A stretch of DNA of 64,000 nt. Origin: Tribonema minus (lineage: Eukaryota; Sar; Xanthophyceae; Tribonematales; Tribonemataceae). Location of the stretch: contig JAFCMP010000039.1 of assembly GCA_017506865.1 (NCBI GenBank), positions 186,001-250,000 of the forward strand, in the 5' to 3' direction. The notes beneath the pieces were generated by a model, which was not told where the DNA came from, did not search any database, and worked only from the letters and a program-made list of their open reading frames with translations. Position 1 is the stretch's first letter. Every line of letters begins with the position of its first letter. This document shows, piece after piece, positions 22,256 through 63,987 of this stretch. A program made the translations under genes and the position numbers.

Positions 22256-22328
22256 GACATCGTCGTCTAGTTGGTTAGGACACCTCGTTGTGGCCGAGGA
22301 AACACGAGTTCGAATCTCGTCGAAGTCA
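22256..22328 (+). tRNA. tRNA-His (GTG)
   Basis: This is a 73-nt cloverleaf. The acceptor arms GACATCG and CGAAGTC pair except for A-A at position 4. The D arm is GTC...GAC around TAGTTGGTTAG, the anticodon stem CCTCG/CGAGG has loop TTGTGGC (anticodon GTG), and the T stem ACGAG/CTCGT has loop TTCGAAT. The discriminator is A, as in eukaryotic tRNA-His; the extra G at position -1 is not encoded. A Pol III terminator-like run of six T lies at 22338-22343. Confidence 0.9.
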
Positions 22329-25265: not shown

Positions 25266-25338
25266 GCCACGATCGTCTAGTCGGTCAGGACACCTCGTTG
25301 TGGCCGAGGAAACACCAGTTCGATTCTGGTTCGGGGCA
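25266..25338 (+). tRNA. tRNA-His (GTG), second copy
   Basis: This is a 73-nt cloverleaf. The acceptor arms GCCACGA and TCGGGGC pair except A-G at position 4. The D arm and anticodon arm are nearly identical to the first copy (anticodon GTG), and the T stem ACCAG/CTGGT has loop TTCGATT. The T stem differs from copy 1 by paired changes that preserve base pairing, whereas the acceptor stems are largely different. The discriminator is A. A TTTT run follows at 25349-25352. Confidence 0.88.
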
Positions 25339-25379
25339 TTTCAATTTCTTTTCACTCCACCACCACCACTTCCGTTCTT

Positions 25380-28488: not shown

Positions 28489-28701
28489 ATGGAAAAAATG
28501 CTTGCATTCCTGCAGTCTTACATGGCGACACATGAAGTGCTTGAGGTCAAGGAACAAGATGCTGACATTGGCAGACTGCAACAAACCACTTCAAAGTACT
28601 CAATGCATACCAGCAATGAAGTGGAGTTGCAGCAGCAGCAGCAACACCAGCGGTGGAGTTGCCCTGCTCCAGCTCTCGACAAGGTGAAGGTGAAACGGTA
28701 A
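28489..28701 (+). CDS. uncertain 70-codon Gln-rich ORF overlapping a tandem duplication
   Basis: The ATG at 28489 follows an A-rich stretch. The first 40 residues (MEKMLAFLQSYMATHEVLE...) look helical and charged, followed by a Gln run from a CAG repeat. The last part reads into the first copy of the 121-bp repeat at 28643. No family is recognised; it could equally be non-coding 3' flank of the convergent aldo-keto reductase gene. Confidence 0.25.
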   Translation: MEKMLAFLQSYMATHEVLEVKEQDADIGRLQQTTSKYSMHTSNEVELQQQQQHQRWSCPAPALDKVKVKR

Positions 28702-28884
28702 ATGGAAGTTGCGTTTGCACATCATCAGTGCATAAATGCATATGCTCCGCTTGGATTTCTAGTAACACCAGCGGTGGAGTTGCCCTGCTCCAGCTCTCGA
28801 CAAGGTGAAGGTGAAACGGTAAATGGAAGTTGCGTTTGCACATCATCAGTGCATAAATGCATATGCTCCGCTTGGATTTCTAGT
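28643..28884. repeat. perfect two-copy tandem duplication, unit 121 bp
   Basis: Copy 1 is 28643-28763 and copy 2 is 28764-28884, with no differences seen. Copy 2 ends with TTTCTAGT, which contains the aldo-keto reductase stop codon (TAG on minus, 28882-28880). The unit therefore spans the last bases of that gene and its 3' flank. Identity points to a very recent duplication, or an assembly artefact. Confidence 0.9.
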
Positions 28885-31392: not shown

Positions 31393-31514
31393 GGCGCTCC
31401 GCGGTGAACACACAGGCACGAACACAATGTGATGACTTCACGTTTGTCAACCCCCGACGTGTCCCCCGCGGCATCTTGCACTTATCAAGAAGCACATAGA
31501 CATCACCAGGCGCC
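31393..31514. promoter_or_regulatory. divergent promoter between two plastid-targeted genes
   Basis: The 122 bp between the start codons at 31392 (minus) and 31515 (plus) must carry both promoters. It includes GTGATGACTTCACGTTTG, with TGACTTCACG resembling a bZIP-type site, and no clear TATA box. Both products carry plastid-import presequences, so shared control is a reasonable inference. Confidence 0.5.
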
Positions 31515-42488: not shown

Positions 42489-45400
42489 ATGAAACACGCT
42501 GCGACCATCATGAAGGGTAAAAAGGTGGGAGCAGGAGAGGAGGCGGCGGAGGATGATCGCGACAGACAGAGTACAGCCCCCACAACGCCCTTCAGCATGC
42601 TGCTGGCAGAGAAGAAGGCTCAAGCGCTGACCAGGCAATCTGCAAGTGGCAAAGAGACCAGGCAATCTGCAAGTGGCAAGGCGCACAACTGGACGGAGTC
42701 CAGTACCACGCAGTCAGCCACGAATGCGTCAACTGTGGCGCGGTCCAGTGCAAGCACCAGCAAGCTGACGCCCAAGCAGCTAATCCGCAAGTACAAGGCA
42801 AAGGTCAAGCCGAAGACATGGCTCTACACCCTGTTCGCGCTGGTGCGTCTGAGTGCAGCGTGCAGTGCGCTAGTGAATGCTTGGTTGTGATGTTGCAAAG
42901 CACCGAAGCACATGTTGGTGAAATGCCGTCTTATTTTCTGCAGGTAATCGTCAAGTTATCATGGCGCGCAGATGCGCTAATGTGCAGGACGGTGTCACAT
43001 TTTGCTACACAGGGACACATTCAATCATTATAGAACACCGGGGTGACAGGCCTTTGCGTCACCCTGAGCCGGCGCTGCTGTCCTTGGTGACAGTGCTCAT
43101 GCAGTGGCTTTGACAGTGGTACGCCAGGCTAGTGCATCACTGTTCGTGCAGCTACAGTGCGACCACTCTTCTACTGGAAAGCATGAGGACATTGAGCCGC
43201 TGGTTCATTGCTAGCCTTGCGCGCACTCTGGAAGGTCTGACACGGCTCACATGGTTATCTTACATGTTTGCTTGAAACTGTGCATGCGCAGACCGTTACC
43301 AGCAGCATACACCAGAGCGTACCACGCTCTGCGGCCACTGTACATCCAGTCATCCAGTAAACTTTAAATGCGTAGGTCTGCATCAGATGGTCACAGCGTG
43401 TGCCGCAAGAGCTGCAGGCTCATAGCAGATGTCAACCAGAGTGCACTTGTTTTGAGGATGCTGGTGGTGATGTGGAGTGGACCGAGTACACGCCTGTCCT
43501 CTGAGCGCACTTTGTAGCATCATATCAACCGCACCAACATCAGGCATGTCTGTGTGCTGTTGGTAACTGGCAGCGTAGAGAGAAATGAGCTGCAACCGTA
43601 AAGGGGCTGTTTGTTTGCCTGCGTGACCACTCTTTCGCTCAACTTCAACCTTCATGCTTGCAGGTTGCTAGTTGGTGCCGGACTTGCGGCTCCATGCTCA
43701 CCATCGCCGCTTGCGTGTCGTAAACTCCATCCTGCAGGTGGAGCTGATCATGATCGGCACATGCGCCATCTCCATCGCCGCCAGCCACAGGGCCGTCATC
43801 ACAAACTACGAGGGCGCGGCCACGGACGCGCTCAACGGCGTGCACGAGGGGTGAGTTCAAGTTGTGAGTTGAAGTTGCGCGCCACGGACGCGCTCAACGG
43901 CGCGCATGAGGGGTGAGACGCAGCTAGCATCTGCTGGGTCATGTCGCCGCGATCTGGCGGCTGATGCTGGGTGTCCTGCTGGCGATGCGCGTGAGCCGCA
44001 ATAGTGTGTACTGTTGCTGCGCGCAGTATATATGATGATTTGCGACATGTGTCTGAACTGCTCACGCGTGAGCAGGGCACTGCGCAGCAGGCGCAGCAGC
44101 GCCCCCGGCAGGGGGTGGGGTGGGGGGGGGGGGGGGTACCAACTGCTGTAGTGAATGCGCGGTGCGGCAAGTTGTCGCCGCAAGGCGCGCTGACAGCAGT
44201 GCTCTGTGTACACGGTTGCTATCTCACCGCCTACATGCATGTATTGCTGCGCGGCAGGTACACCAAGAAGGTGTTCCAGATGCGCAACCTGCTGGAGAAC
44301 ACCAAGTTCAACTTCGACGTGCAGGTGCGCGACGGAGTGTATGCATATGTATTGCTCATACGCAAGCTTTACGTTGAAGTGTGACATTGCTTCGGGTTTG
44401 CAAATCATGATGACTTGGGATGGTAGTCATCAGGTGTTGCCTTCATGTGCATCAGATCTTTTTGTTCTCTCAAACGGTTTATGCGAAATATTGCGCTTCC
44501 ACGGACAAAAGCATTTATGCGAAATATTGCGCTTCCACGGACAAAAGCATTTGAGAGCGCTCAACGACACAGGCAGCTTGATGCATGCACTCGGGCATAC
44601 TCGCCAGGCTGTTGTGGAGGCAACATCGTATGCCTCCGTTGCACGCCACACTTGAATGTCATGACCAACGGCGCCCGGCTGTGCTGCCAGTGAGGTGCAA
44701 TACACCTCTATGATGCCTGCCTGACAGCAGCTTGGCACAGCGAGCGGTGTTCATGGCCGTTCAGCAGCCCTGCATAGCTCACTGCTGAACCCAGTAAAGA
44801 TGCGGCGCACTTCATGCTGTCTTGCACTGCAATGAACATACACAGTAGCAGCTTTCATAGCCAATGCCGCTCGCGACGTCTGCGGCGGCAGATGGCCGGC
44901 CTCATTGCTAATCTCAACGCTGCACGTGATCTGTCCTTTCTTGTTGCAGTCGTACCTGAACGACACTGCATCCGCGGCGAAGCAGCAGCAAGTGGAAAAG
45001 CTCATTGCGCACATTGCGGTCACCTACAGGGTAAGGGGACTTTAACACTTGACTAAACACTGGCTTGATGAAGCTTAATGACTTCAGCAACACGTACACT
45101 TGAAGCATTTTATGAGCCCACCAGCAGCTATGCCAGAGGATGAATCATGCATGCACCTGTATGCACAGCAATGGATTCAGAAGCTGTTGACCTCTGAGCG
45201 TGATGTCGGCGACCGTGCTATGGGAGCAGCTAGGTCCCGCATTTGCAGGAGTGTACTTCATGACAACAACAATACAAAATATCTATGAATGGTGTTCACG
45301 CTGGTTATTTTCCACAAACCAGCTTTTTTTCCATAATTGGGAAACCAATAATACTTCTGCGGAGTGATCATATGGGAAATGAAACATCTTAGTACCATGT

Positions 45401-48400
45401 AGAAAAATCAAACGAGATGCCGATAGTAGTGGTGAGCGAACTTGGTAAAGGCTTTTGTCTTATTGAAAATTAATAATTTTAAAATATTACGAGAAGTACA
45501 TGCATTCACAACCTGCCGGTCGCATTGCAATAACCTCTCTCACCACAAGCGAGCCGCGCTGCTTCCATCGGCGTATCTGACGTGCATCTCGGAGTTGCGG
45601 CCGCCGCTGACGCCGTCTGTCAAGCAGGCAGCACACAGTGTTGGCGTCTGTCTGCGCTGCAGCATTGCCGCACTCCTCATGCGCGCACCTGAGCAGCGCT
45701 GCACTGCATGCACTAACAGGCGGTGCATGCTGTGATGCAGGGCCCCGCTGTGCGGCTTTGCACTGGCCAGCGCGCATGCGGACGCCAACGCTCGCACAAC
45801 GGCCAACAATCCATTGCAGGGCGCGCCTCGCGCCAGTGGGTCAGAGACGTGCATTGGGGAAGGCATATGTAGTGACGTGAGGATGCTTGAGCACGTTGAA
45901 GTAAGGACGGTGACAGCCGAGTGCTGTGCCGGATAGAGAATCTCGATTCGTATTGCCATCCTTCGCGCAATCTGTACGAGGCTAGTACACGAACACGCAC
46001 CCAATGCGCACACAGAAACCATGCTGGATGAGACACCGGAGAGCGTGATGGTATGTGAGACGCCCTGCGGAACGGCTGCCTTCCTTGCACTCACTGTTCG
46101 CGCAAAACATTTGTGCGCATGCCATGTCAGCATCATTCAGTATAGTCTACAGCAGTGCAGTTAAAGTCAGCCCGGGCGTGGCTTCAGGTGGCCACCACCG
46201 CTGGCGCACTGACAGTGACGAGTTCCACAGACCGCTCGTTGAAACGTCAACCGCCTTGCGCACACCAAGGCGCAGATGTGACTCGCTATAAATGTGATCT
46301 GGTGTGGCCTGCTGCGCAGATAGAGTACGTCACACTCCTGGGCGCAGATATGAAGATCCTGGCGTCCGCCAACAAGGACCGTGCAGGGGAACCCTTTGAC
46401 CCGGAGGTGAGCTGCCCCCCCCCCCCCCCCCCCCGCCCCTGCCGCAGTTGGGGGGAACCCGCAATCAGTGACTGCTGTGGCAGGTGCTCAGTAAGCTACA
46501 GTTCCTGGAAGCCTGGACTAGGGCAGCATGAGATGTGGTGGTAAATCTGGCAACTTGAAGTGTGTGATGCAGTGGCACCACGTAGCTTCTGTCAGATGAT
46601 GTATGTCCATGTGGACGCTGAAGATGGTCAGCTTGCATGAAGTTGGTGTTGCAGCCGTACAGTAGAGCCAAGCGTCGTTCTGCAATGACCAGTTTTGTCT
46701 CGTCCGTGGCCGCAGCGGCGCAGCGTGTAGCTCAGTCGGCACGCTCGCTGTCTCGTTGGTGCGCCTGTGTAGACATACACCGGCAGCGCATTCACTGCGC
46801 GCACAGAGCCCCATGCACCGCCCCATGCACCGACGCGGGATGTTCGCTTCTTCGCTTGCCGTGCACCCACAGGGCATAGTGACCGCGGCCGCTCGAGCCA
46901 ACACGGTGCCGGTCTGGACGTACGCGCGGCACACCATGGAGCAGCTGCTGGCGGAGGACTTCCCCGTCCGCTGGGACAGGGAGTCGCAGCTCGATGAGGT
47001 GCGGCACAGGCGTGTGACGCTCCACGCCCCGCAGCAGAACTGAAGTTGAATTGTTGACTCGCAGGCGTACAAAAGCGCTGATTTGGCCCTGTTGCTTTTG
47101 CTGGCCATGGGTGCGGCCGCGGCGCGACGACACTTCACAGACGGCGCTCGTGTCCCCTTTTCTCTACATATGGTGTGATGCAGTCAAAGGTTACCGCCAG
47201 CCTGCAAGCTATCAACCATCACACGCAGCGTGCCCTGTTCGATCTGCCGCCTCAATGTTGCTATACCCTCAGATTTTGCCGATACACATGCCGGTGTACT
47301 TCAACGCCTCAAAGAATTGCCAGGCGTGATCTGTTCTTACATGACATTTGACACCATTGGTAACTTTCGTCTTGCATTTGACTTCATTGGTAACCTACCT
47401 CCTATATGTTGCCCCTACGATAGGCGTTACTGTGGGAAGATGCGTTTGTGTTTCCAGCCACAATTGTGGGAATGAATGAGCAAACGCAGCATAAGACACA
47501 TCAGTTTTTGCAACACTCCACTGCGCATAGATCTAGACTAATTGGTATTTCACTCATGCATGCCATGCGCGTCCTATCGTGCAGTCGTTCAAGGGTGGCT
47601 CGCAGGCAAACTACAGGGGAGATGCGGTGATACGGTGGTGAGTTACAACTTGAAGTACTGCTTGAGCAATGTGCATTCTTTTGTGTCGCAAAGGATGTGT
47701 GGCGATGTAGGCATCGTGTGCCGGTGCATCATTGCCGGCAGGCTTGCCTGGGAGATCCTCAAGCATTTGGTTGCATGTCACTGCCGAATGCTGCCATGTG
47801 TCAAGTTTATTTTGCATGCTTATCTGTGGGCATGTACTGATTGTGCAATCGCATACAGCTTTGTACTGAGTGATTACCAGGCGCTGACAACCATTGCCAG
47901 CGGGCGCCAAAAAAAAGCTATTCTACTGACACTATGTTGAAGTTGAAGTTGAGCAGCAAAGGAGGTCCGTCAGCATGCCCCTCGCAGAACAAAAGCAGCC
48001 TCCGCTGCTACCATCGCCGACCGCAGATGAAGTCGGACTATACACACCAACACACCAAGATTGTTGAATCGCAGCTGCATCAAGGCACTGCATGGCTGAC
48101 AGCATCATGTCCTGTACCTGCACCATGTTATGCCCCACTCACCGGCCGTGCCGTGCTCCGCCAGGGCGGCCGTGGCCGTGGAAGCCATCGACAAGGAGAC
48201 GTTTGAGGTCATCAGCCCGGGCGAGGCGCCAAGCGGCTTCCTCGTGCTCGGCGACCTCGTGAGTTGGAGCGATCGCTTGCGCAGGAGGGGGGGGTCGAGG
48301 AGGCGATGCGTGTCGCGGCACTTCGCATGCTGATTGAACATTGTGCCGACATGCCACTGGTTTCGACGAATGCAGTCATCAAGAGTTGGAGAAGTGAGCA

Positions 48401-51400
48401 CTTGCGACGCCACTCTGAACGCATGCAGACCAGAAATGATGTTTGCTCCGCTGCCAGCAGCATCGCGCTGACAAGCCACGACCTTTTGAAAGCTGGCTGA
48501 ACCTGCAATGATGGGCGAGACGGCGTGTTATGCAGCATGTGTTGCATCTCATACCCATCTCATGCAAATGCCTACTGTAGTCTTATTGTGCATGTTTCGT
48601 GGCAGTGCTTACATTAGGATGCACGTGCTGAAAGTGCACACCCTACAACTTGAAGCGCAACGCAGGTGGCCTGGACGCCTTCGGCCTTCACTGCATGCGG
48701 TGTTCCCCAGCAACGGCCCCGCCACAATGCTTACGCACAGCGCACGGGCGCGCCGCCTGCCTGCTCACGCTGTGTGGGCCCGCATCCCACTACCGCATGT
48801 ACTCCCTTTGCAAAGGACGCCTGCGTTGGGACCTGGCGTACAGCCCCTTCCGCTGTACCACGCGCTGAGCCCAATGCGCGTCCTCACCGCTCAGCACCGC
48901 TCTGCGCCCACTGCTGGTGCTCGAGCTCAGTCAAAACCACGCTATGATCACAGCCTCCAGCGTTGCCGGCGCAGGTGAACGGCAAGTCCTCCGCGACCTC
49001 GCTCACGGCGTCCACCATCGGCGGCATCGCGAGCATCTTCACGCGGCGCAACGACGCCGACGCCGACCCCCACAAGCGCTGGATCACAGGTGCGCAGCCA
49101 CAGCAGCGCGTCTAACGATTTTCTGTCAAGCGTGCGCCGGGGGGGAGGAGACGGTCGAGGGGCGTGCGCAGCATCGCCGCTCGCAGCCGCCAGACATTGC
49201 GCGCGCTCCTAACATGCGATTGCGCGGCGTGCGGCGCAGCGGCAGCCCAGCCCGCCACACGACACGTCGCGGCGCGCTGCGTTGCTGTGCGCTCCTGGGC
49301 GGTTGCAGTGCTCGGCACAGCCCGCACGCTGTCATTGCTGCGACTCGCTGCAGTCTTGCGCGTCGGTATCGAACTTGCGCTCACAAACTTTGCTTTGGTG
49401 GCGGGGGGGCGCTGCATCACCAGACAGCACCCGAAGCGCGCATGCGCAGCACCGCTTGCACGGCATGATGCCCTGGTGCATGGTCAAAACATGGTTTTCA
49501 CGCTACTGTTGCTGTTATTCACAGCCAGTCCAGGCTCACTTAAGCCCAGCTTGCGGTGATCGCCGTTCCGTGCAGGCATGTCCAGCGTGTCCATGAACCT
49601 CAAGGCGCGCGTCGACGGGTCGTCCGTCGTTCAGAACGTCCTGGTCCAGGCAAGTGGGTTTGGTTCCAAGCACTCGGTGGGCTGTCTGTGTCAGGCGCAC
49701 AAGCTTCAGGGATCACCAGTGGCTGCGCTGCAGTCTCGTCCCCGCAGAGTATGCAGCAAAAGAAGGGTTGTGGAGATGCTTCCACCATAACATTCAGATC
49801 TGTCCTGGTTATCATATGCGTCTTGCAGCAGCATGATGACCAGGCCAGCTCAATCTTTCAACGCCAGATGCTCACGTGAGCTTGACCTGAGCTGGAGTCC
49901 ATGGTCACGATCCGCTCTGCAATGCCACCTTCTGGCAGCGCTTTTTGCCACGCAGCTCATTGACAACGGCCAGGCAGCCACACGCTTCTGCTCACACGAT
50001 CGCGTGCGCCGCGCTTTGCGCGATGTTGCCTGCAAACAGTACCAAGTGACATGCTTGACAGGTCAGCGCTCTGCGGTGCAGCAGATGCGCAGAATGAGCG
50101 GACGTTAGCAGTGATCATCGCCCGCCTTCTGCATCACTCACAAAACTGCGGGCGCACGCACCGCAGTCGACACCTGCCTGACGGCCTCCGCACCCGCCTT
50201 AACGCCCCCCTTGCCCCCCCCCCACCCCCCACCCCCCCCCACCCGTTTGTGCGCGCATGCGCAGGGCTTCTCGCCGTACGACGCGCAGCCGGACAGCGAG
50301 GCGTCCATGGACGCCGTGCAGCTCAAGCCCGACGCCGACGAGAGCGCCAAGTGCTACCAGATCAACCCGTATATGACAGCGCTCAGGAAGTGGCACAAGA
50401 ACGACGAGATGGAGCCGTCGAGCGGCAGGCCCGGCCTGGTCCTCTCGCGCGGCGTCATCATCGACCGCTCGCTGACGTCCGGCTTTGTCACAAAGCAGTG
50501 GATATGCGTCGGCATCATCGTCTTCATCGACGCCTTCACGCTCTTCCTGGCGACGTGGCTGTTTCTGGTGAGTGCGCACGCGCCGCGCCGCCGCGCTGCA
50601 CCTGCCGCCTGCGCTCGACCGCCGCGCAACACGGTGCTGGCGGCGCCTGGCGCGCAGCACGGAGCGCGTCTGCCTGCCTTATGGACAGCTGCGTGAATGT
50701 GTGTCAGTGTGGCACTGATCAGCAGTGCAGCACTGCGGCTGACCGGCCATGCCTGTGAGAGCAAACTGCAGGAGCGGCAGAATTGTATCGACCTCGACAA
50801 TGCTTGCATCACCGCCCGGCGCCGCCACCTGCACCGATCCGCTGAGCATCAGCGCCATCACACACACGCGCGCCGACCCTCGCCGCGCCCGCCGCCGCGC
50901 CGCCTATGCAGGCGCCGCTGGAGGCCATGGGCAAGCGCATCCGCAGCGGCCAGCGCATCGACTTTGGCTTCCTCAAGAGCCTCACGCGGCGCAAGCGGCT
51001 GGGCGCGGTGATCGCCGCGGCGGCGCTCGCGTCGCTCGGCGTGGGCGTCTTCATCCAGCAGAGCAACGCGCGCAATCTCGAGCGCCTCGTGTACACCAAG
51101 AGCGCCTTCGAGGTGAGGGGGGGTGGGTGGTCGCTGGGAGGCGTCTTGGTTCATGTTAGGGCGGCCACGAAGCAGGGCCATGTCACTGCTTGTGGTGCAG
51201 TATAGCAGCGCTCAACAGTCGTGGCAGTAAGCAAGTCGCCTGCCAGCGGCGGCAGCCGCGAAGAGCCGCCGGTCGTACGCATGCGCAACGTGACGGCGAC
51301 CCTGACGACAACTGCGCTGATTACGTAAGCCACGCCGCCGTCGCGCGCCGCCGCGCCTGCGCGCTGCCACCGCCGCCGCGCCGCGTCCTCCGCTCTGCCG

Positions 51401-54400
51401 CGTCACAAACCTCAAGTGCCGCCACCCCGCTGCTCGCGCCGCGCAGCCGGGGAGCACCATGCTCGCGTACCGCCAGCAGCCGGACCAGGTGTCGCGGATC
51501 CTTGCAACCACACAAGTCGGGTCCGGCCTGCTGGGGCTGCTGGCGAACCCCGGCGACACGGCGCGCCTCGAGTTCGCGCACCACCGCCTCGGGCAGATGG
51601 AGGACTCGCTGTGGCTCGACATGGTGCTGGTGAGCTTGTGCGCGTGCAGTAGCAGTCAGGCCAAGGGGTAGCGCCGCAGTTGTCGTGAGGGCACTCGAGG
51701 TCAGTGACTGTTCTGCAAGTTGGTGATGCAGCTCGGGGTGTAAGAGCGCCACAGCGTGAGTGTCTGCGGCACCGACGAAAAGCGTGCGTTGCCGCAGTGT
51801 CAGTTGCAATCACGCACGCGTGCGGCCAGGCACTGCAGGAACGCACAGCGAGCACTTCCAAAAGCCGTTGTCGGCATACTCTGCATTTCACCTGGTGCGA
51901 TAGCCCGCGCACATAGAATATGGAGGACGTGTCGCTGACAGACTGAGACATGTCACGCGCTGAGCACCGCCGCCCATCGCTTGCCTCCGCAGCTCCTGGA
52001 CAACACCGGCAAGGTGTTGGTGGTGCCCGAGGGCGGCACGCAGGAGGGCCAGCTCTTCGACACCGCCAACGACATCGTCAACGCCACCATACAGCAGGGC
52101 ACGAGGTTCACCAGGAGGTGACCCACTGAAGCGTACTGCTGCAGCCAGTGCGTGCGCACGCGCATGCGTATGTATGTCGCATGCTGTCGCGCCCATACGC
52201 CGCCAGTCACGAGCTGTCGGGAGATGCGTTGCGGTGCTCGCAGCCCTCGCTGGCTGCTGCGCGGCGGAGCCTTCGGCGCTTGCGCAGGCCAACGCTGGCC
52301 GCAAGCTCTGCTAGTGCCATGCCTGAGCCGCAGTGACACTGGTTGGTTCACGGCATGTATGCGCGCCACACATGTGACTCGTAGCGGGTAGTGCCAGGAC
52401 GCCTGACCGGTGTCGCTGTTGAGCGCTGAGCAGCAGGCAGCAGGTTAGCGACTGGCGTTCTTCATGAACACGGGGCTATGTCACCCGATATCTCCTGCAG
52501 TGCGACCCAATTCCTCAAAGTGCGCAACGCACATGCATGACCGCACGAGGCACTGATGCTGCACGCGCTCAGCCGCCGCGTGGCACCGTCCCGGACGGCT
52601 GCCGTGCCGCTTCACGCCGCCTCCATGCTGACTTTCACGCGCTCTACATCTGTTCCCTCTCGCCGCACCCGCCGCGCGCAGCGCAACGATGCCGGCGTCG
52701 GAGCTCGCCAAGTTCAACTCCGTGCGCCGCATCGACCGCTACTTCAACACGACGCCCATCAGCGCGCACGACCCGCGCGTGACGGGCGAGGAGGTGTTGG
52801 TGCGCTGGACGTCGTGCCCGATGTGGATCGGCGGTCCCGACTCGGGGGAGCCCGTTGCAGGTGCGACGACGAAAAGCGCCGCAGTGCTCAATGGCAGTTG
52901 AATTGTGTATTGAAAAGACGCACACGCACTCGTGCCCAATGTGGATTGGCGGTCCCGATTCTGGGGAGCCCGTTGCAGGTGCGGTGATGGCGCTCGGTGC
53001 GATGCTCAGCGGCACTTTGATCGTGTACACCAGGCGTGTCAGAAGTGCGATCGACGTCTGGCACCGTGTTTGCATACGGCCTTGCCCTCCTGTCCGCGGT
53101 GCTTGCTGCGGCATGTGGCCAGTGCGCTGCCAGTCACCGACTCGGATGATGACGACTCCCCATATGACATGTGCCGCTTCACCGCGCAAGGCAGTGCCGC
53201 GGTGTGCCCAGAACTGGCAGGTCCCTGCTGTTGCAGTGAGTCACTATTGCTGCTATGTATTGCGGCTTCACGGCGCTTGATGTGTATTGCTGAACCTGCA
53301 ACAGTACCTCCTTGGTGCTCTGGTAAGGGCCCGGGTGATCGTCGTTGGTCTGCGTTTGAGGTGGTCATTGCGCTTACCGTCATCCTTGGGACGGCGCGCA
53401 GCGTCAGCGACAGGCATCTCTTGCTGGGAATTCCTATTTGCGCTGCTCGAGCCAGCACCACCAGGCAGCGGTCAAACGGTGCTTCATGAATACAACCAAG
53501 CCTGTCGTGGGCGCCCCATCACGATGCCAGTCACCCCCTCGAGTCACCAAAAGCGTTTTGCTGATGCTCACAGAAACCTGTCTTGCCTAGCAGTTCTGCC
53601 CCCGTGCCGCTGGAGCCAGCACGACCACCAGCGGTCTGCACTCGCAAGGCACTACGTCTTGTTCATGCAAAACTCGGGCGAACGCTGCACGTCCACCATT
53701 CAGCAGTTCTGTGTGCGTACACGCCTCGCGCGCAGGCGTGCTGCTCGCTGCGGACATTGTCAACGGCAAGACGCGCATCGTGGAGCGCTCCAACAAGATG
53801 GTCGGCCGCGGCTGGAGCGGCATCTACTTCTACAACTCCACGAGCCAGTACCAGATGGCGGCGGCGGTGAACCGCATCGGCGACGATTCGCGATTCAACT
53901 TCGAGGTGGACATCGAGCTGCCGGCGACCAAGTGGTGAGCGCTGCTGCAATCACAGCCGCCGTAATGTAATAGTGGAAGCAGCTGTCTAGTAAAGTCCAT
54001 CTAGTATACTTCGAAGTGCTACGCTACAGTTTAGTATAGTGTCAGCATGAGTGTGGCCCCTGAGGTGGCATTGCGCGCCCCCTAGCAGGGGACGCCGGCG
54101 CGCGAGCGCGGGCGGTCGGTCGTGGTGCTGGCGTGACTGAGCATTGCTGGTCACATATGAGTTGAGCACTGCGACAGGTGGCGCCACTGATCTGATGCTG
54201 CGGCGGCATAGAGGTGCAAGACTGATGACATCCATGCCGTGCAACAGGCAGCAGTTGTGCAACGAAGAGTGCATTTGCCGGAGTACAGCGAGCATGCCAT
54301 GCCCGCTCCGCTTAGCGCCTGCACTCAAGTACGCCTTTAAGAAGCGCCGAATGCGCTCACTACTAACGGCCATGCTTGCGGTGAATGCATTGATTGCCCC

Positions 54401-56887
54401 TGCGGTCGCGCAGGCTGGACCAGTTGCGCCTGTCACGCGAGTGGATCACCAACGACCAATACACGGTGCACGCGCAGGTGCGTCCGAGCGCTGAGCACTG
54501 TGACAGCTTGCAATTTGAAGCCGGCATTGCGCATGCATCGCTGTTTTGGCCGGCCGTACTAGTGAGAGAGGCTGTGCGCGCGTGTATACCCAAGGTGCGC
54601 AATGGAACGGGGGCTTGGCGGACGTGCGCCGCGCCAGACCGACACAGACAGCGACGTCTTCAGTCCGCAGCGTCACGGTCATGGTGGCCTGAACTGCCAC
54701 CTTGCATTCACAAGATGCAGAGACGCTTGCGGCGGGAGTCTGGCGTGCCGCGTTTCCAGATGATGTGCTTCATCGCAAGGCAAAAGGCCATTGTATGTCA
54801 TGTGACAGTCACTGTGGGCAAGTTTGCAGAGCGCTGCAGTGTGCACTCACTGCAAGCTATACCTAGTACAGAACATACCACGCATGTCCAGCCTGAGAGC
54901 TTTGTGTAGGCACCTCGCACATCACAGACTGATGCAGTCACCGCAGCGGTGGGCACGATGCAGTGGTTCAAACCCTTGTGTGCTGTAAATCAGCGGTGAT
55001 AAACCTGTGCCCCAACACATACAAAACCAGCAGACAAGTGGAGCCTGCGTTGTAACTGCTTGTACATCTCGACACGACGGCGCCTGCCGCTGGTGATCAC
55101 AATAAACACCGACGTCAAAATCACCTCTCTTCATCAAAGTTCTCACACCATCTCATGGGACAGTCGCCCTCCAGGCCCGGCAACGACAAGGGCGCTTTGC
55201 TTGCTACTTCACTGGTCCTCGTCAGTGTCAGTGCCTGCCCTGACCCTCGGCCCATCCAAGCTGATCGCATGCAATTAGGTACTGCAATGACTCATTGCCA
55301 ATGAGGTACCGCAAACTGCGTCACGATAAATCATGCGCCGTGCCGCTTTTTCGTTGCGCACGCCACGCACCCACCATGCACACGCGTCGCGCGCGCTGCT
55401 GCTCCAGATCAAGTGGCCAGCCAAGGGCGGCCACTGGGTGTTCTCCGCGCGCTGCCTCAACAAGAACGAGGTCTACAAGGACTTTGGCGCGGACATTGAG
55501 GACACGGACTGGTTCGGGCAACCCCTGGGCGACTGCCTGGGGTACCTCATCGAGGGGATACCGTGGTCGTCCGTAGCGGGCTCGCTGCGGGCGTCGTACG
55601 CGTGGCAGGTGAGAGCCCCTTCCCTTCTCTTTCGTACTGCGCGAGCACCGCGTTGAGTGCCTTGCGGACGTGGTGGCGGCTGCAGCGGGGCCTGCTGCAC
55701 TGCGCCCGCCACCGCGCAAACGCCCATGAGAGTACTCGGGTGTCAGCACCGCGCCGGCTACAGTCATGCAGACTTGTGAGACTCGACATTGGCGGTGTTG
55801 GGTGAGTGTGAGCTCCTCCTTTTGCGCCGTGCAGCGCCAGGGTCGTAGCGGTGCAGGAGCTTCGCTCATTGCGCTCTTGCACATCCTGCGGCACTGACTG
55901 GGTGCCTCATGCTCGTTCACTGCCACATCCTGTAGCCGCGCCACTTTCTCAGCTCTGCAGCCATGGCTGATGGGTGCGTTGAGACCGCGTGCGTGGGTCT
56001 GTCCATGATGGAGTGTCACAGCGGTATTTCCAACATGTGGTCTGTATCAGAGGACCGTACTTGTCAGCATGCCGCTGCAAAAGATAGAGCGGCATGGCAT
56101 GCTGCCCTGCATGATCAAAATGGCTGGCCTTTGCAATCACAGTGCGTGTATATGCTTGCAATGTGGGATCGTCGCCGACCTTTTCCTTTACACTCTTCCG
56201 CTCGCTGCTTGCACGCGCTGCTGCAGTGGATCTTCATCATCACCTGCGCCTTCAAGGTGGTGGCCATGGGGGTGCTCTGCTACCGCGCTTATCTCCCCTT
56301 CAGCAAGATTGTGGTCAACAACAAGGTGCGCAGAGAATCGCTTGCTGCACCGGATGACTCGACAAGACGGAAGGCGGTGGCAATTACTGCACGATGATGT
56401 ATGGTTTGACTGACCCACACTTTGTGAGCGGGGCTGCTGTCTGTTGCAAGCAGGAGCAGGCTTTTTCCATTCATTGATTTGGTGTACCACAGGTACTGCA
56501 GGGCTCCGCCTCCGCTGGTGTTGTTGTGTTCCGCTACCTCAATATTTTGTGCATTGTTGAGAGAAAATTTAAGCGTGTGAGAAATCTCGCACCATGTTCA
56601 TCAAGTCACATCTCAAAGTACTTCGAATGCCTGTGACCTGCAGAACAGACTTTGCTTGTGCCGTTGAAGCTCCTGCGCCGATGCTCTTTGACAACAGAAA
56701 GTATGTCATGTACCACTTGCGGCCTCCCCTGAGACTTGGCTGCCCCTTGTGCTGTGTGCAGTTCGTTCAAGGGAACCACCATGCCGTCGACGACGCGCCA
56801 GCGCGGGGCGGCAAGAACGTGCCTCCTGCCACGGGATCCCGCAAGTACACCAAAGACATCACCGCAAGCACCACCGAGGTCCAATAA
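42489..56887 (+). CDS. large receptor-like membrane protein with two cyanobacterial-type sensor units (paralogue 1)
   Basis: Exons: 42489-42842 (start uncertain, frame open upstream), 43738-43850, 44258-44324, 44950-45030, 46320-46406, 46873-46998, 47585-47637, 48165-48258, 48975-49089, 49576-49649 (GC donor), 50265-50567, 50912-51112, a doubtful small exon near 51215-51270, 51447-51629, 51993-52117, 52682-52860, 53736-53934, 54414-54477, 55408-55608, 56227-56325, 56762-56887: about 947 residues. A cytosolic basic head (LTPKQLIRKYKAKVKPKTW) leads into TM1, then a sensor: IEYVTLLGADMKILASANKD, EPFDPE-GIV, DAVIRW, GFLVLGDL-VNGKSSATSL. TM2 (WICVGIIVFIDAFTLFLATW) is followed by TM3 (LGAVIAAAALASLGVGVF) and a second sensor: LLDNTGKVLVV, EVLVRWTSCPMW, ADIVNGKTRIVERSN, GWSGIYFYN. 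TM4 (WIFIITCAFKVVAMGVLCYR) and a ~50-residue tail end the chain. The order D-R(Y/W)T-DIVNGK-GGYSA(V/I)Y is that of the Cache-like N-terminal sensor of cyanobacterial chemoreceptors. No HAMP, kinase or cyclase is seen. Alternatively two genes, the second starting at ATG 50906. Confidence 0.7.
42632..42680 (+). repeat. in-frame 27-bp coding repeat (TRQSASGK twice)
   Basis: Inside exon 1 of the receptor gene the octapeptide TRQSASGK is encoded twice in tandem with identical codons, separated by one Glu. It lies in the cytosolic, low-complexity head before TM1 and is absent from the paralogue, so it is a recent in-frame expansion. Confidence 0.75.
43819..43916 (+). repeat. duplicated exon end with splice donor (receptor exon 2)
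   Basis: The last 32 nt of exon 2 plus its GTGAG donor (43819-43855) are repeated 62 bp downstream inside the intron (43881-43917). The copy encodes ATDALNGAHEG versus ATDALNGVHEG, with one replacement and one synonymous change. Confidence 0.85.
44478..44549. repeat. perfect 36-bp tandem duplication flanked by an 8-bp inverted repeat
   Basis: Within receptor intron 3 a 36-bp unit beginning TTTATGCGAAATATTGCGCT occurs twice without differences. CTCTCAAA (44467-44474) and TTTGAGAG (44549-44556) flank the pair as an inverted repeat, so the transcript could fold into a hairpin-bounded loop. Confidence 0.8.
45280..45530. other. AT-rich island in a receptor intron
   Basis: Within the 1.29-kb intron between exons 4 and 5, about 250 bp switch to strongly AT-rich sequence (ATTGAAAATTAATAATTTTA). 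The flanks return to GC-rich. It may be an inserted fragment; no terminal repeat or coding content was found. Confidence 0.4.
52812..52978 (+). repeat. duplicated exon end with splice donor (receptor exon 16)
   Basis: The last 49 nt of exon 16 (52812-52860, SCPMWIGGPDSGEPVA) are repeated 118 bp downstream in the intron (52930-52978), again followed by GTGCG. The four differences are all synonymous third-codon changes. Confidence 0.9.
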
Positions 56888-57925
56888 AGGCCTCAACTGC
56901 TGCATTCGGCATGGACAAAAGGCATGGTTACAGCAGCAGCAGGACAGCAAGCGGCACGCCAAAGGAGGTCCCCCGTGTGCTGCGCAGTTTACAGATTGCA
57001 CCGTTCCTCTGGCCAGTATTTGCATGCAGTCATATTTGGGCGCGCCCGTTTCCGCCGGCGCTGGTAGACGCTGCGTGCAGCAGTAGTTGCACTTTCAGTT
57101 GTATTGGCCGCCGTGCCGTTGGCTCACCCCTGCCGCGTGGTACACCCCCATGGGCAACAAGGTGGGACACCGTCCCCTGCCACTCCGGCCTGGTCCAGCT
57201 GGTCCTACATGTCCATGCCGCACCACTTCCGCGCTGCACGTCACCAGCATCACCACCAACCCCCTTCCTCACCCTGAGCATGTCCCTGATCCGGGCTACA
57301 AGTCTGGGCGCTGTGAGCCGCTCTCGTCGACGCGCTCCAATGTTTATGGAAACATGCAACTTTACGCCCATCCGACGTCTTTCTTTCACGTCCTGTTGCT
57401 GCAACGTTCGAGACAGTGTTGGCAGCGTGCACTTCTGCTCTACAGCAACACTTGACGGTCTGCTGCAGCAAAACTGCTTTTTTTCTGCTCATCCATTTCT
57501 TGAGAGCTGATGGCTTTTTCAGGTAGAGCCTGATCCAACGACATGAACCTCTTTCAGCGGCATCGGTGGTTGTTACCCAGGATGGTCACATCACATGTGT
57601 GTGTGTCGCGCCAAACCACGAAAGAGTAAACAAAAACGGTTACGGATTCCGTAACGACAGGGTGGGAGAGACAAATCAGCGTTTGGTCTCCAAAGCACCT
57701 GAGCGAAAATGCCGAGCCCTTGGCAAGCTTGATGGCAGCCTCACTGGGCGCCACGGATATAGCGGTTCGTCTGCAGAGGTTGCAGCCCCAGGAAATCCCG
57801 ATTGGTGGCGCACAGGAAACTCCTCAAATGCTTGATCTGAGTGCTTGTGCTTGAAGCTAGCGGAGCAGCAGCAGCTACGGAGGAGAGAATTATCGTTTTG
57901 ACGTCGCCGACAGAAGGAGGCTGCC
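56888..57925. other. intergenic between the two receptor paralogues
   Basis: The stop codon of paralogue 1 (TAA, 56885-56887) overlaps an AATAAA polyadenylation-like signal (56883-56888). The following kilobase holds no supported exon. Frames such as 57566-57835 have no recognised content. Confidence 0.45.
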
Positions 57926-60900
57926 ATGCCTTCTGCTCCGAGAGTAGCAGTGTCGCAGTTGGAAGACGAGGTGGAGTGTGTGCGAGGCCAGCGGGCAGCC
58001 ACTACGCCAGTTGGAGGGGCTGCGCCAAGCAGCCCTAGTCACATCCCTTATAGCCAGGTGGGCATCTGCTTGTCGCGTGTGTCCTACTGACTGCAGCGTC
58101 GCCCGTCGCTGTTTTAGCGAAATCCACGTGCAGATTGGTTCTGCAGTTCTCGCGTAGACACTAAGTGCACTTCAACCAGCCCACGTCAGCACGTGATAAC
58201 GGTGGCGCAACGACGGCTCTCCTCGAGTTACTGACACACTGCAGATCGTCGGTGCTTCACAGTGCACCAGCATCAGCACTCCCTCTGATGGTCAGGCACT
58301 GTAGCGCAAAACCATGTCGCACAGCGGGTTGCCTGACCATGTACCTGTGGCTGATGCACGGGCTCTGTGCAGGTGTTGGCAGCACGGAAAGCGGAGCTGC
58401 AGGCAAAGACTAAGGCGCAAAGACAGCAGCAGCAGGTGGCGCGCTCGGTGCACGGATGGTCGGACACTACATCGGGGGACGAGACGGGGCGGTCATCCGC
58501 CAACACAAGCATAGGCAACAAATCGGACACCAAACTGACGCCAAAGCAGCTGCTGAGGAAGTACAAAGCCAGGATCAAGCCGCGGACATGGCTTTACATC
58601 ATATTCGTATTTGTAAGTGCACTGCAACTACAATCATTACAGTGTTGCTTACTGTCAGTGTGACATGCGTCGATGGCAACATAATCGTGCCTTACATTAT
58701 GCTTGTGCGCTCAAGTAAGCCAAGGCCGAGCGGATCACCAACATCATCGGCACCCACCAGTGAACGCCGTGGACAGCATAGAGTGACACTGCCGCAAGTG
58801 TCTAAGCGCGCAAGACACACAAAGTAAGGGCGACAGCTGCACTGGTAGATGTCAACATCTGCAGTGAGGGTTCGCGATCGACTGCACAGTATGCGCTGCG
58901 TGGAATGAGTAGGCAACACATCGTATGGGTGCCGCCATGATCTGACAGTGTGTCTTCACGTAGGCTGGCACTTCATCCAGGTTCAGCACAAAGTGCAGAC
59001 TCCACTGTGCCGGGCCCGTGCCGCGCCTGTCCCCTCCCCCCCTCCCCCATGCCCCCCTGGCGGCGTGTGCCACCATTGACTGCTGCCGACAGCGCTGCGC
59101 GTGCCACGGTGTGAAGCAGTAGCCTCCTCGCTCCAGCCCGCATCCCGCTCGCAGTCTCAGCGACACTCTGAGTCTGAGTATCAGCTGAGCCGTGTGCACT
59201 GCGCGATCAGCACTTTGAATTTGAGTCAGCTGAGCAACACTCTGAGTCTGAGTCAGCTGAGCCGTGTGCACCGCGCGGCGCGACAGGTGGAGGCCATCAT
59301 GGTGCTGGCGTTCTTCCTGTCGGCGCACGCGAGCCACCACGCCGTGGTGGTGACGTACGAGAACTCGGCGAAGGACATGCTGAGCAGCGTGCACGAAGGG
59401 TGAGTGAGGGCGTGAGTGAGTGAGCGCGGCGGCGGAGTCGTCGGCAAGCCGTGTGTAAGGGCGGGTGAAGTCTTGGTGGTGCATAGCACAGGGTGGAGCC
59501 GTGTTTGTGAAGGGGAGGGGGAAGGTACTCGGCGGATGATGTGAATGAGTGCTCGTCTCCACTGTGAGCCGCGTGGAATCAGTTGCACAAGCCCGAGCTT
59601 ACAGTCACTGCAGACAACGCATGCAGCGGTGCAAGGTGCGTCGGGAGAATGCCACAAGTGGCAAGTCACGTCTTCGTGGCCATTCGCGAGCACGATGCTG
59701 GCGAGACGCAGAGTGTAGATTGCGTTGGCGGGCACATTGCTGGGCTTGTTCACAGTCAGACGGCGTCGCGTTGTGCAAAGCCTCTTGAATAGGCCAGAGT
59801 AAAAACACCTCTCAGCATCCTCCTGCGCCGGCAGGCAGCGCATGGCCACTGCCTGAGTCAGCCAGCAGGGTGCGGCGCGGCGGCGACAGAGGGGGGGAAG
59901 GGGGGGGGGGGGGGGGACTGCTACGTTACATCAGCTCAGCTGCCCAATGTGCGGGGTACTGCCGAGAGCACCAGTGCTTGTCTGCGGGTGAGACGTGGCT
60001 CACTGCTGCACTCTTCCGCTGCCGCCCGCCCCCCCTCCCCCTGCAGGTATACCAAGAAGGTGTACCAGACGCGTAACCTGCTGGTGAGTGGGCAGTGGTG
60101 ATACTCAAAGCGTGCTGCCACGCGACATCCCTTGCTACATGAATAGTGCGGAGCGCGAAGTAGTAGCCTGCTTGTTGTGGACACGGTGGTGGCGTCACAG
60201 TGTTAACCTGGACGTTTTGCCCGGCGGTTGTGCCAATGTTACAGCATGACTCAGACCGTGTTGCCAGTGCAGATGGTCGCATTGCATGCACAGAGAGTGC
60301 GTCACATATTGCCTCATGCGGGAGCAGCGATGGCAGCGTTAAACAGCAGTACTGGTGCGAGCGGCGCATGTTATTCTCTGCCCAGCGAGGCGCTCGCGAT
60401 TGAACGTGTGGCAGTGGCAGTGCGGAGCCGCGCCTATGCTTGAGCACAGTGCTCTGCTCCCTTCCCAGGCGCGGAGACAGACGCAGTTCAGTGGGTCTGC
60501 CTAGTGCCTATTGCAAGCGTGCCGACGCACACGCAGCACTGCGCGCATTCACATCCAGAAAATAGCGGCAGCAAAGTAGCGCATTGATCACACATGGCAG
60601 CCCGCTCTGCGGACGGTGCGGTGCAGCTGCGAATGCACCCCTAGCTCTTGCGTCACACTCTCAGTGCACGCGCATGTATGGCGACCATCCTGATGTACTC
60701 GGCTGCTGCATGCAACAGACGCACGGTCGTGGTACATGGCAGCTGCGCTGTGAAATTCGCACGCACTCTCCGCCCAGGCTGCGCACCGCACCCGCGCACG
60801 ACCCCCCCCCCTCGCAGGAGGGCACCCAGTACAACTTTGACGTGCAGACGTACCTCGCGGCGGGCGGGCAGACGGCAGCGAACGAGACGCGCATCGTCGC

Positions 60901-63900
60901 GCTCATGCAGAACATCCAGAAGACGTATCAGGTGGAGTTCGCCATGCTGCTCGACCAGAACAAGGCCGTGCTGTACGACGTGAACCGCAACAACTCGCGC
61001 CAGGGCGAGACCGTGGACCCGGAGGTGAGTCGTCCTCGTTTAATTAGGGCTTGGCTGCTAACCCTAGGTTGCAGGTTTAGTGACCAACGGATGGCTTATG
61101 TGTTTAGCTGTCGGCGACAGAGGCGACGGCAACTTATGTCTATGGCTGCGTCCGTAGCGCGCACTGGGCGGGAGCATTGCAGCTGGTGCGTACAACACCG
61201 TCGCAGCTACCTTGCCTGCTTCAACAGCGACGCGTCCCGATGCCAGCTGCTTTGCAGACCGCGCAGTAGCACTCATCTCGCTGGCGCCAGGCTGCGTCGC
61301 CTGTCAAGCATGCACGGCGCCGTTTTTACTGCGCCTGCCCTTCAGCACGGCGCCCAGTGACGCGACTGGCCTCGCGCAGAAGGCACCCGGCGCGCCCCCC
61401 CCCCGCGGCTGCGCAGAGCGCCCCTCTCTGCGCGCCTGCCACACGACAACCACGTCACCAACAAGTACAAGTACAGCGCTGCTGGCACTCTCAGCGCCCC
61501 TCTGAGCACTTCTGCACGTCGCGCCGCGCTGCGCCCTCTCCGTCCCCGCGCAGGGCCTGGTGACGCTCGTGCAGCAGCAGCAGGGCGACACGCTCTGGAC
61601 GTACGGCCTGCTCAAGTACGAGGACTTTGTCGCCGAGGGCTGCCCCGTGTTCCGCGACAGGGAGTCCGAGCTCGACCAGGTACGCGCGCACCGCCTGCTG
61701 CTCCCATCTGCATAGCAGTGCTCAGCGCCGGGGAGCGGCATAGCTGCCGCAGCGCCGCGGTGCGGCGGCGTGAGAGTTTGCGCTTGCGGCCGGGGAGGGT
61801 CAGCGGACGTCGCCTTTGCAGCCGCTGTGAGAGTTGTGCGCTGCGCATGCGTGCGCGTGTATGTGTTTCAGCAAATGGGCAATGCGCTAAACCTGTCAAA
61901 GTGTTGTTGAAATTGGAAATTGCATAGGCCACCGCCGTACCAGAAGTGATGGACCCAGCAGCAGGAGCCAAGTGGTGCAGTGAATGACCAGCAGGGTGGC
62001 GCAACCTGGACCTTTGCAGAGGCAGGCTGTCTCAAAGCATTTGCACGTGGCAGTGCGAGTGGTGCACGTTGTCTCCCAGCTGATCACAGGGCAAACTGAC
62101 TGCATAGATGCATGCATCAATAATGCCGTACGGGCTGGTGCGCACTGTGCAATTTGAGGCTATTGTTGTGCCGCACCAGCGTACTTGCCAGCAGCGACTC
62201 ATGCACGGCAGCACACTGGTAGCTCTAGCTGCCACAAAAGCACTGTAGCAGTGACCAACACGAAATACAACACACATGACATCTGGCACGATGCACAATC
62301 CATAGCCTGACACACAGCACACTGACAGACGCGCCTCAAAAGCATGACAGACGCTGCATTCAGTGCCCCCCCCCCCCTCCCCCCCCCCCCTCTCCCCCAT
62401 ACGTGAACTTTGTAGCCTCAGCTCAGAGCAACCCGTGAAGCTTGCACAGTGCACATGCCCACTTGCGCTCATAGATTGTGCATGCGGCATGCCTGTCATC
62501 CTAACGCATCCTACCCATGAAATCAGTCAACAATATCGCTCAAGCCGCCATATCGCGTTGTGACTGACCTGTGTGAAACGGCTTGACACCTGTGTGAAAC
62601 GGCTTGACATGGTGCCTGCCGCAGGCCTTCAAGGGCGCGCACCCAACAGAGACACAGGCCGACTCGCTCATCCGATGGTACGTGCTCATCTTTAAGCTGA
62701 TCGTTGTGGCATGAACGCTAGTGCCGCCAAGCAAGCCTTGCGCTCCATACTCGCAGACGCAGGCGAGGGACGGCGCTCTTGGTCGTGCCGTTTCCTGTTA
62801 AGTGCACTCTGCTTGTTCTGGTAGTAGAAGCACCGGGGAGCTGATGCGCGGAGCGATGCACGGAGCAGGAACATGTGTTGCGCTGCCTCCACGTTTTGAC
62901 AGTTGCTCTGGGAGTAGGCAGCGCACAGCAGTGCAGTCGACGTGCTGGTCCCGCATGCGCATACCGATTCGCTGTCGAGGCTTGCCAAGCCCCTGCGCGT
63001 GGGCGCCCGCACTGCAGCCCCGCATTCAACAGCAGTGCTCAAAGGAGTGACGTCGCCATCGCACGAGCGCGTTCACTGTGCCACGCGTGCCACACCGCTG
63101 CACTCCTCTGTACTTCAACTTCGAAGGGGAGAGTCCGACAGCGCCGCCGAGTTCACTTCTTCGGAGCGCCGCCGCTGGGTCATTATCACAGAGCTCGAAC
63201 ACTGACCGCAGCGTGCCGTGCGCCTACTCGCTCTCCACGACGCCTGGCCTTCGTGCCCCTGTCCCTGACCCCTGCCCCCTGTTGTGCTGCGCGCCCCCTG
63301 GTCTCAACAGGGTCTCCACGGGCATCTTGAGGGTGGACCGGACGACACTGGAGCCTATCGACGCGAACGAGGCCCCCGCTGGCTACCTTGTGATCGGCGA
63401 TATTGTGCGTACACGTGCGCCACAAGCTGCAGCGCGTGTCATTGTTATTGTTGCAGTGCGGCGGTCACGAGTCGCCGCGGTGTGGCACGCAGGGCGGGCC
63501 GCACTCAGGGGGGGGGTATGTACTGCAGTGTGCCGGGAAGTCGCCGAGGCGGCGAGACTGGTGGTAGAGCGGCTTTCGGCTGCTATGCCAGCAGGCAATG
63601 TAGAAGATGATTCACCAGCGTTATGCTGCAGGTCTAGGACGGAGGTGAAGTGAGGCGGGTGTTGCTTGACGCTGACGTCTTCGCGCGCAACAACCTCAAC
63701 TGCTGTACTATCAAAAGTGTCACGTTGTTGCTGGTGCCCATGACACACAAGCACACGGCGCACTCGGTGCAAGCCTGGACGCAGTTCACACCCTTGCAGC
63801 GTGCGCGCACAGGCCTCACAGCAACTCATGTTTACTGCATTGGTGGTGATGCTCAACTGCCCGCGCAGGTCAACGGCAAGTCCTCGTCGACCTCGCTCAT

Positions 63901-63987
63901 CGGGCTGACGCTCGGCGGCATGGCGGGCGTGTACCACAGGCGCAACAGCTCCAACGCGCTGCTGGACGAGCTGGGCGGCCACCGCTG
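57926..63987 (+). CDS. receptor-like membrane protein with cyanobacterial-type sensor (paralogue 2, partial)
   Basis: Exons: 57926-58057, 58373-58612, 59287-59399, 60047-60083, 60818-61024, 61554-61679, 62625-62677, 63311-63404, 63869-63987, all in phase; the gene continues past the window. The start ATG opens MPSAPRVAVSQLEDEVECVR. Exon 2 carries a Gln/Ser/Thr-rich cytosolic head and KLTPKQLLRKYKARIKPRTW, nearly the same as paralogue 1, then TM1 (WLYIIFVF + VEAIMVLAFFLSAHAS). The sensor follows: SSVHEGYTKKVYQTRNLL, VEFAMLLDQNKAVLYDVN, ETVDPE-GLVTLVQQQQ, CPVFRDRESELDQ, AFKG, DSLIRW, DANEAPAGYLVIGDI, VNGKSSSTSLIGLTLGGMAGVY. The exon boundaries at VHEG, DPE/GLV, ELDQ/AFKG, IRW and GDI/VNGK match paralogue 1, but two introns of paralogue 1 are absent here and one here is absent there. 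The ligand and the output are unknown. Confidence 0.75.
59163..59270. repeat. diverged tandem repeat, period about 74 bp, before a receptor exon
   Basis: ACACTCTGAGTCTGAGT(AT)CAGCTGAGCCGTGTGCAC-type sequence occurs at 59163 and 59237, with an extra TGAGTCAGCTGAGC between. The second copy runs to within 10-20 bp of the exon 3 acceptor of paralogue 2 (59286), so it supplies part of that 3' splice region. Confidence 0.65.
62567..62608. repeat. two-copy perfect tandem repeat, unit 21 bp
   Basis: ACCTGTGTGAAACGGCTTGA plus C is present twice in tandem, ending about 15 bp before the acceptor of receptor exon 7 (62624). Confidence 0.85.

Follow-up and report, generated by a model that had tools for sequence, protein, structure and literature searches.

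The stretch of Tribonema minus DNA analysed here (64,000 nucleotides of contig JAFCMP010000039.1, forward-strand positions 186,001 to 250,000; hereafter the window, whose own numbering is used throughout) carries two head-to-tail, intron-rich genes, designated A and B, for membrane proteins whose outer domains are, judged by profile comparison, homologous to the N-terminal sensor of cyanobacterial methyl-accepting chemotaxis proteins (MCPs) and histidine kinases. This applies to the first and second sensors of protein A (A1 and A2) and to the sensor of protein B. We consider it probable that A and B are receptor-like membrane proteins, in which A comprises two units of transmembrane (TM) helix, dCache_3-type sensor and TM helix, and which lack a recognised output and signal via a separate partner.

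Homology to cyanobacterial sensors

The sequence-only reading of this DNA had proposed the cyanobacterial link, and the link is borne out by pattern scan, profile search and profile-profile comparison alike. When a prokaryote genome collection is scanned with an alignment of the three algal sensors, three matches are confirmed among the 400 candidate stretches listed and all three are cyanobacterial (E 1e-13 to 4e-10); as the scan used short patterns and the candidates number at least 400, a restriction to cyanobacteria is not proven by it. Whole-genome searches with the three confirmed loci find the sensor family in 34 of 292 sampled cyanobacterial genomes. Of the 386 cyanobacterial genomes searched in reverse with the algal profile, 33 match at E <= 1e-3, with a best E of 1.5e-15; 27 of these are among the 34 positives of the forward search and the other 6 are absent from that list. 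Both counts are samples of a single phylum. A profile built from 32 cyanobacterial sensors scores 109.7 bits against protein A, with separate stretches at residues 184-352 (51.2 bits) and 627-800 (53.7 bits), and 46.1 bits against the whole of B (41.8 for the best stretch). The best of 2000 shuffled copies of A and B reaches 5.8 bits, and reversing the two sequences gives 2.3 and 0.2, so that this search of the spliced proteins, which had been suggested along with the link, gives matches far above the shuffles. Comparison of the algal and cyanobacterial alignments as profiles gives a probability of 99.4 and an E value of 1.5e-21. The best identities to cyanobacterial sensors are 35% for A1, 34% for B and 30% for A2 over 143-151 columns, in an alignment in which the start of A2 is misaligned; the tree and the conservation counts below use a re-trimmed alignment.

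Other collections contribute little. A sequence search of the PDB with A gives a best E of only 0.32, and none of 72 candidates is confirmed when viral contigs are scanned for the algal sensors. Two tblastn searches of plasmids with the two halves of A gave no match in one case and two matches in the other (E 4 and 9), and a cyanobacterial sensor likewise has no plasmid match at E <= 1e-3, so the plasmid collection is uninformative either way.

In a tree of 43 rows (40 cyanobacterial and 3 algal), A1 and B form a firm pair with support of 98/95, or 100/99 when A2 is left out. The 40 cyanobacterial rows are split from the algal rows at 90/76, which is not a firm branch, and the end branch of A2 is very long (3.5-4.7), so that A2 is not to be placed. 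A tree with cyanobacterial homologues was another suggestion of the sequence-only reading. In it the algal rows have long branches and lie apart from the cyanobacterial sequences sampled, a position of algal copies inside a cyanobacterial clade is unsupported, and with either algal set left out the remaining set is not drawn firmly into the cyanobacterial rows. Such a tree would also be expected if the likeness reflected convergence or drift among Cache domains generally, with the algal sensors having no special kinship to the cyanobacterial subfamily, all the more as non-cyanobacterial dCache_3 proteins lie outside the sampling. We regard this explanation as improbable, given that generic Pfam Cache models reach 14 bits or less on A against 109.7 for the cyanobacterial profile and that the confirmed matches of the all-prokaryote scan are cyanobacterial in three cases out of three.

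The motif string previously read from the outer domains is present as to its motifs, but as a string it is a composite over three sensors that mixes both units of A with B. Thus LLGADMKILASANKDRAGEPFDP is found in A1 only, its counterpart in B being LLDQNKAVLYDVNRNNSRQGETVDP. The RW motif reads DAVIRW in A1, DSLIRW in B and VLVRWT in A2; the VNGK motif reads GDLVNGK, GDIVNGK and ADIVNGKTRIVE in the same order, and the GG motif GGIASIF, GGMAGVY and GRGWSGIY. Conserved columns, meaning those with the same residue in at least 85% of the 40 cyanobacterial rows, are retained at 27 of 45 positions in A1, 23 of 44 in B and 16 of 40 in A2. At variable columns, defined as those with no majority residue, the commonest cyanobacterial residue is matched at 6 of 51 positions in A1, 7 of 48 in B and 4 of 45 in A2. 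Residues N91, R94, G96, R145 and D167 (numbered as in the sensor of the cyanobacterial homologue L001) are kept in A1 and B; in A2, R145 and D167 are kept and N91 and R94 lost.

This pattern suggests a pocket or core under constraint in A1 and B, and we propose that sensor 1 of either protein is a better candidate for ligand binding than sensor 2 of A, because A1 and B keep the N..R.G and R motifs and A2 has lost several of these. The same figures bear on whether the Cache units are now purely structural, A and B being scaffold, adhesion or trafficking proteins descended from sensors that no longer bind a ligand. The state of A2, with its few conserved columns, its two lost residues and its very long branch, would fit that explanation, as would the lack of a recognised output domain; in A1 and B the conserved columns kept include all five of the residues named above while the variable columns have drifted, which argues against it, and we hold it to be rather unlikely.

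The cyanobacterial relatives indicate what kind of sensor this is. The proteins of the three confirmed stretches carry HAMP and MCPsignal domains in all three cases. In 13 cyanobacterial proteins scanned, some of them clipped by the flank of the locus, HAMP is found in 12, an MCP domain in 5 and kinase domains in 5, with output not seen in 3; a second set of 10 within these 13 has HAMP in 9, an MCP domain in 2 and kinase domains in 5, with output again not seen in 3. The L001 sensor matches Pfam dCache_3 at 30.9 bits, over the cut-off of 25.7, and a dCache_3 match at E <= 1 is found in 17 of 30 cyanobacterial sensors (best 1.8e-9). In a Foldseek comparison of the first AlphaFold2 model of the L001 sensor with the PDB, 131 chains match at E <= 0.001, and the best 50 of 1240 chains are mostly Cache sensors of chemoreceptors and kinases, such as TlpA, DctB, TlpQ, KinD and WalK, with TM-scores to the query of 0.29-0.55. 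The top chains for a second model are the sensors of CitA, DctB, WalK and DcuS. A Cache type for the cyanobacterial family is supported by these profile matches and modest models, in agreement with the type anticipated by the sequence-only reading. The fold evidence is from the cyanobacterial homologue, and a Cache fold of the algal sensors is putative.

Exon structure, protein layout and paralogy

Splicing the 20 exons of gene A (42489-56887, forward strand) gives a continuous reading frame of 947 amino acids, or 2844 nucleotides including the stop, with no internal stops. Of its 19 introns, 18 are GT-AG and one, after exon 10, is GC-AG, and all 19 would introduce an in-frame stop if retained. 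The host is eukaryotic because these are spliceosomal introns.

All exons of both genes lie on the forward strand. Exon 1 of gene A (42489-42842) begins with the start ATG at 42489 and encodes the putative cytosolic N-terminus, including LTPKQLIRKYKAKVKPKTWLY, which is common to gene B, and the start of TM1. Exon 2 (43738-43850) holds the remainder of TM1 and the start of sensor 1, and exon 3 (44258-44324) the N-terminal helical part of that sensor. Sensor 1 continues through exon 4 (44950-45030), exon 5 with IEYVTLLGADMKILASANKDRAGEPFDPE (46320-46406), exon 6 (46873-46998), exon 7 with DAVIRW (47585-47637), exon 8 (48165-48258) and exon 9 (48975-49089), where the motif is read as GDL|VNGK. 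Its membrane-proximal part is in exon 10 (49576-49649), which precedes the GC-AG intron, and its end lies in exon 11 (50265-50567) together with TM2. A basic loop and TM3 are encoded by exon 12 (50912-51112). Sensor 2 begins in exon 13 (51447-51629) and runs through exon 14 (51993-52117), exon 15 with VLVRWT (52682-52860) and exon 16 (53736-53934), which carries ADIVNGKTRIVE followed further on by GRGWSGIYFY, to its membrane-proximal part in exon 17 (54414-54477) and its end in exon 18 (55408-55608). Exon 19 (56227-56325) supplies TM4 and the start of the C-terminal tail, and exon 20 (56762-56887) the rest of the tail and the stop TAA. The 3' end of exon 15 and its donor site (SCPMWIGGPDSGEPVAG) are duplicated in the intron that follows (52800-52985, forward strand), possibly as an alternative splice site.

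Hydropathy places the four TM helices of protein A at residues 115-133, within 458-490, at 519-537 and at 874-892. The parts that would be cytosolic are rich in basic residues (lysine and arginine against aspartate and glutamate, 21 to 9 in residues 1-114, 9 to 2 in the loop at 491-518 and 8 to 4 in the tail at 893-947), and the outer parts are not basic (34 to 42 and 32 to 38). Protein B, besides its match to the first half of A, also matches the second half (E 1e-6). Because of the four helices, the basic character of the putative cytosolic parts and this second match of B, protein A is best read as two TM-sensor-TM units in a single chain, with a topology that would put the basic residues on the cytosolic side. 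After TM4 there is a tail of 55 residues and then the stop.

Gene B starts about 1 kb 3' of the gene A stop and runs from 57926 to the window end, which cuts its first sensor; nine exons give 373 amino acids so far. Its eight introns are all GT-AG and all contain a stop. The tentative start exon (exon 1, 57926-58057) is joined on the strength of a weak match of the exon end to protein A, and together with the 3' end of exon 9 it is the least certain part of the gene. Exon 2 (58373-58612) encodes the putative cytosolic N-terminus with LTPKQLLRKYKARIKPRTWLY and the start of TM1, the helix that hydropathy places at residues 118-136 of protein B, and exon 3 (59287-59399) the remainder of TM1 and the start of sensor 1. 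There follow exon 4 (60047-60083) and the sensor 1 exons 5 with LLDQNKAVLYDVNRNNSRQGETVDPE (60818-61024), 6 (61554-61679), 7 with DSLIRW (62625-62677) and 8 (63311-63404). Exon 9 (63869-63987), read as GDI|VNGK, is the last exon fitting in the window and ends at 63987; the gene continues beyond, and the 3' end of this exon is uncertain. A conserved basic stretch, LTPKQL.RKYKA..KP.TWLY, directly precedes TM1 in both proteins.

The two proteins are 43% identical over 338 residues (E 2e-90) and the genes are head-to-tail paralogues. They have six introns in common at identical alignment column and phase. In the compared stretch a further two occur only in A and another only in B, at alignment columns 180, 190 and 218, so that intron gain or loss followed the duplication. 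With splicing, identity and common introns all in place, the description of a tandem pair of multi-exon genes in an intron-rich eukaryotic genome, as first given from the sequence, stands. Bases that differ between A and B fall at the three codon positions with frequencies of 0.379, 0.342 and 0.442 (269 aligned codons), which is the order expected of coding sequence. The branch that bears on an internal duplication of the two sensors of A, the one joining all three algal rows, is the branch with support of only 90/76.

Output, proposed working and origin

No kinase, HisKA/HATPase, MCP, HAMP or cyclase domain is detected in protein A or in the B fragment with Pfam and NCBIfam, nor does a PDB sequence search reveal an output domain in A. 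Were the true transcript of A, or the full-length B, to join an ordinary output such as a histidine kinase or an adenylate cyclase, the pair would be conventional eukaryotic hybrid receptors. The cyanobacterial relatives do carry MCP or kinase outputs, a 2016 survey describes eukaryotic Cache domains in histidine kinases of plants and fungi and in a cyclase of Naegleria (PMC4822843), and B is cut by the window end. Set against this, A comes to its stop shortly after TM4, with B beginning only about 1 kb downstream, and the first sensor of B matches the architecture of A exon by exon so far, so we consider a hybrid receptor very improbable.

Protein A is likeliest to be a two-sensor receptor or auxiliary subunit with a separate signalling partner, by analogy with the animal alpha2delta subunits. 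In this model, a sensor, preferably sensor 1 of A or B, would bind a small molecule present in the cell's surroundings or in the lumen of an endomembrane compartment. The paired TM helices would relay the ligand-induced change to the short parts in the cytosol, which in A would be the basic N-terminus, the short basic loop that joins the units and the short tail. These parts would in turn act on a separate partner protein, which might be a channel, a cyclase or a kinase.

Several results weigh against a ligand-binding Cache receptor that works through a partner. The search of the algal proteins with the Pfam Cache and dCache families, also suggested from the sequence, gave matches that all fall under their cut-offs: on A, sCache_3_2 is found at E 0.055 and dCache_3 at E 0.093 with 12.7 bits where 25.7 are required, and on B the best matches are fn3 (E 0.0092) and CHASE4 (E 0.044). 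The AlphaFold2 models of the L001 sensor, made from three rows each, are of modest confidence, with a mean predicted local distance difference test score (pLDDT) of 59.8 and a predicted TM-score (pTM) of 0.55, and 63.6 and 0.69 for a shorter piece; for the second model only 1 chain of the 372 at E <= 10 reaches E <= 0.001 in Foldseek. A sequence-profile search of the PDB with the cyanobacterial sensors returns no Cache chain, only a stretch of aminopeptidase N (E 7.6e-4), which, not being a sensor chain, we attribute to chance or composition. Candidate HAMP remnants were rejected: after TM2, where APLEAMGKRIRSGQRID looks HAMP-like by eye, 109 of 500 shuffled tails reach the score of a TM-HAMP profile, and after TM4 the candidate is only weakly better than shuffles, 5 of 500 reaching its score. 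Finally, gene B is incomplete and may carry an output domain past the window.

As to origin, an old acquisition fits the tree, which would be compatible with a plastid ancestor, a later transfer or a source outside the cyanobacteria. A fuller history, which we put forward as possible though doubtful, is that an algal nucleus acquired a cyanobacterial chemotaxis or two-component sensor, either with the plastid ancestor or at a later time, and that this sensor was stripped of HAMP and output, was doubled within the protein and duplicated as a gene, and now forms the subunit that binds the ligand in a eukaryotic signalling complex, arriving independently at the alpha2delta plan from a different Cache family.

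Genomic surroundings and known systems

Three neighbouring genes in the window, for a nitronate monooxygenase (10340-10906, forward strand), a eukaryotic-type aspartyl protease (19207-21156, reverse strand) and an aldo/keto reductase (28883-31016, reverse strand), include no obvious signalling partner for A or B. Adjoining the reductase gene is a 121-base tandem duplication with identical copies (28643-28884). Two tRNA-His(GTG) genes (22256-22328 and 25265-25339, forward strand) lie 3 kb apart in repeated surroundings. On the reverse strand at 2861-7648 there are four similar exon-like stretches around a DPCPG..K.L.VRY motif; Pfam DnaJ-like_C11_C matches one of these at E 1.4e-4 and two at 0.036-0.057, in each case under the cut-off, and does not match the fourth. 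The stretches may perhaps belong to a gene in which DNAJC11-type C-terminal domains are repeated. The open frame at 31500-31889, with two more at 32943-33437 and 33624-34025 (all forward strand), has a presequence-like start that leads into a one-helix protein with long repeats rich in alanine, lysine, proline and glutamate. The start resembles a signal-plus-transit presequence that carries an ASAFAP motif, of the kind used by algae with secondary red plastids, and is the one sign in the window of an algal host; the two pieces scanned have no Pfam match.

The genes are a real and unusual pair, and that they constitute a new sensory system is offered as a hypothesis drawn from their sequences. 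A narrow literature search, limited to open-licence papers, found no description of such a protein. If A does sense, the input of a bacterial chemoreceptor would be transferable and could be joined to a eukaryotic output, and A would be a specific protein for studying which cues these algae perceive, whether nutrients, partners or prey, and through what.

Protein A resembles the cyanobacterial MCPs and histidine kinases (for example loci L001-L003, L010 and L016) in its TM-sensor-TM arrangement, in sensors homologous along most of their length and in the D(I/L)VNGK, N..R.G and IRY/IRW motifs. In the cyanobacterial proteins a single sensor precedes HAMP and MCP or HisKA/HATPase domains, whereas A has two sensors and no recognised HAMP or output, and its gene is intron-rich and nuclear. 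By sequence, A is a member of the cyanobacterial sensor subfamily; it is neither an MCP nor a kinase, because the defining domains are absent.

Among eukaryotes, plant AHK1 and the fungal Sln1-group histidine kinases likewise have an extracytoplasmic Cache region flanked by a pair of TM helices (PMC6944256, PMC4822843), but these have kinase and receiver domains, none of which is recognised in A or the B fragment. The 2016 survey counts few eukaryotic Cache domains, which in animals are mostly those of alpha2delta subunits, in plants and fungi those of histidine kinases and in Naegleria that of one cyclase; it attributes them to horizontal transfer, and in its table the outputs of dCache_3 are chiefly kinase, MCP and GGDEF-type domains (PMC4822843). 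A four-helix protein with two cyanobacterial-type dCache_3 sensors and no output fits none of the eukaryotic Cache classes given there.

The animal alpha2delta calcium-channel subunits act through a partner channel, have a VWA domain and are not known to have the four-TM layout; dCache_1 and VWA are both absent from the Pfam lists of A and the B fragment. Like A, for which two double-Cache domains are predicted and no enzymatic output is recognised, they are eukaryotic, have two double-Cache domains per protein and possess no enzymatic output, but their two domains are of the dCache_1 family (PMC9901441), whereas the sensors of A are of dCache_3 type, and A is not a member of alpha2delta.

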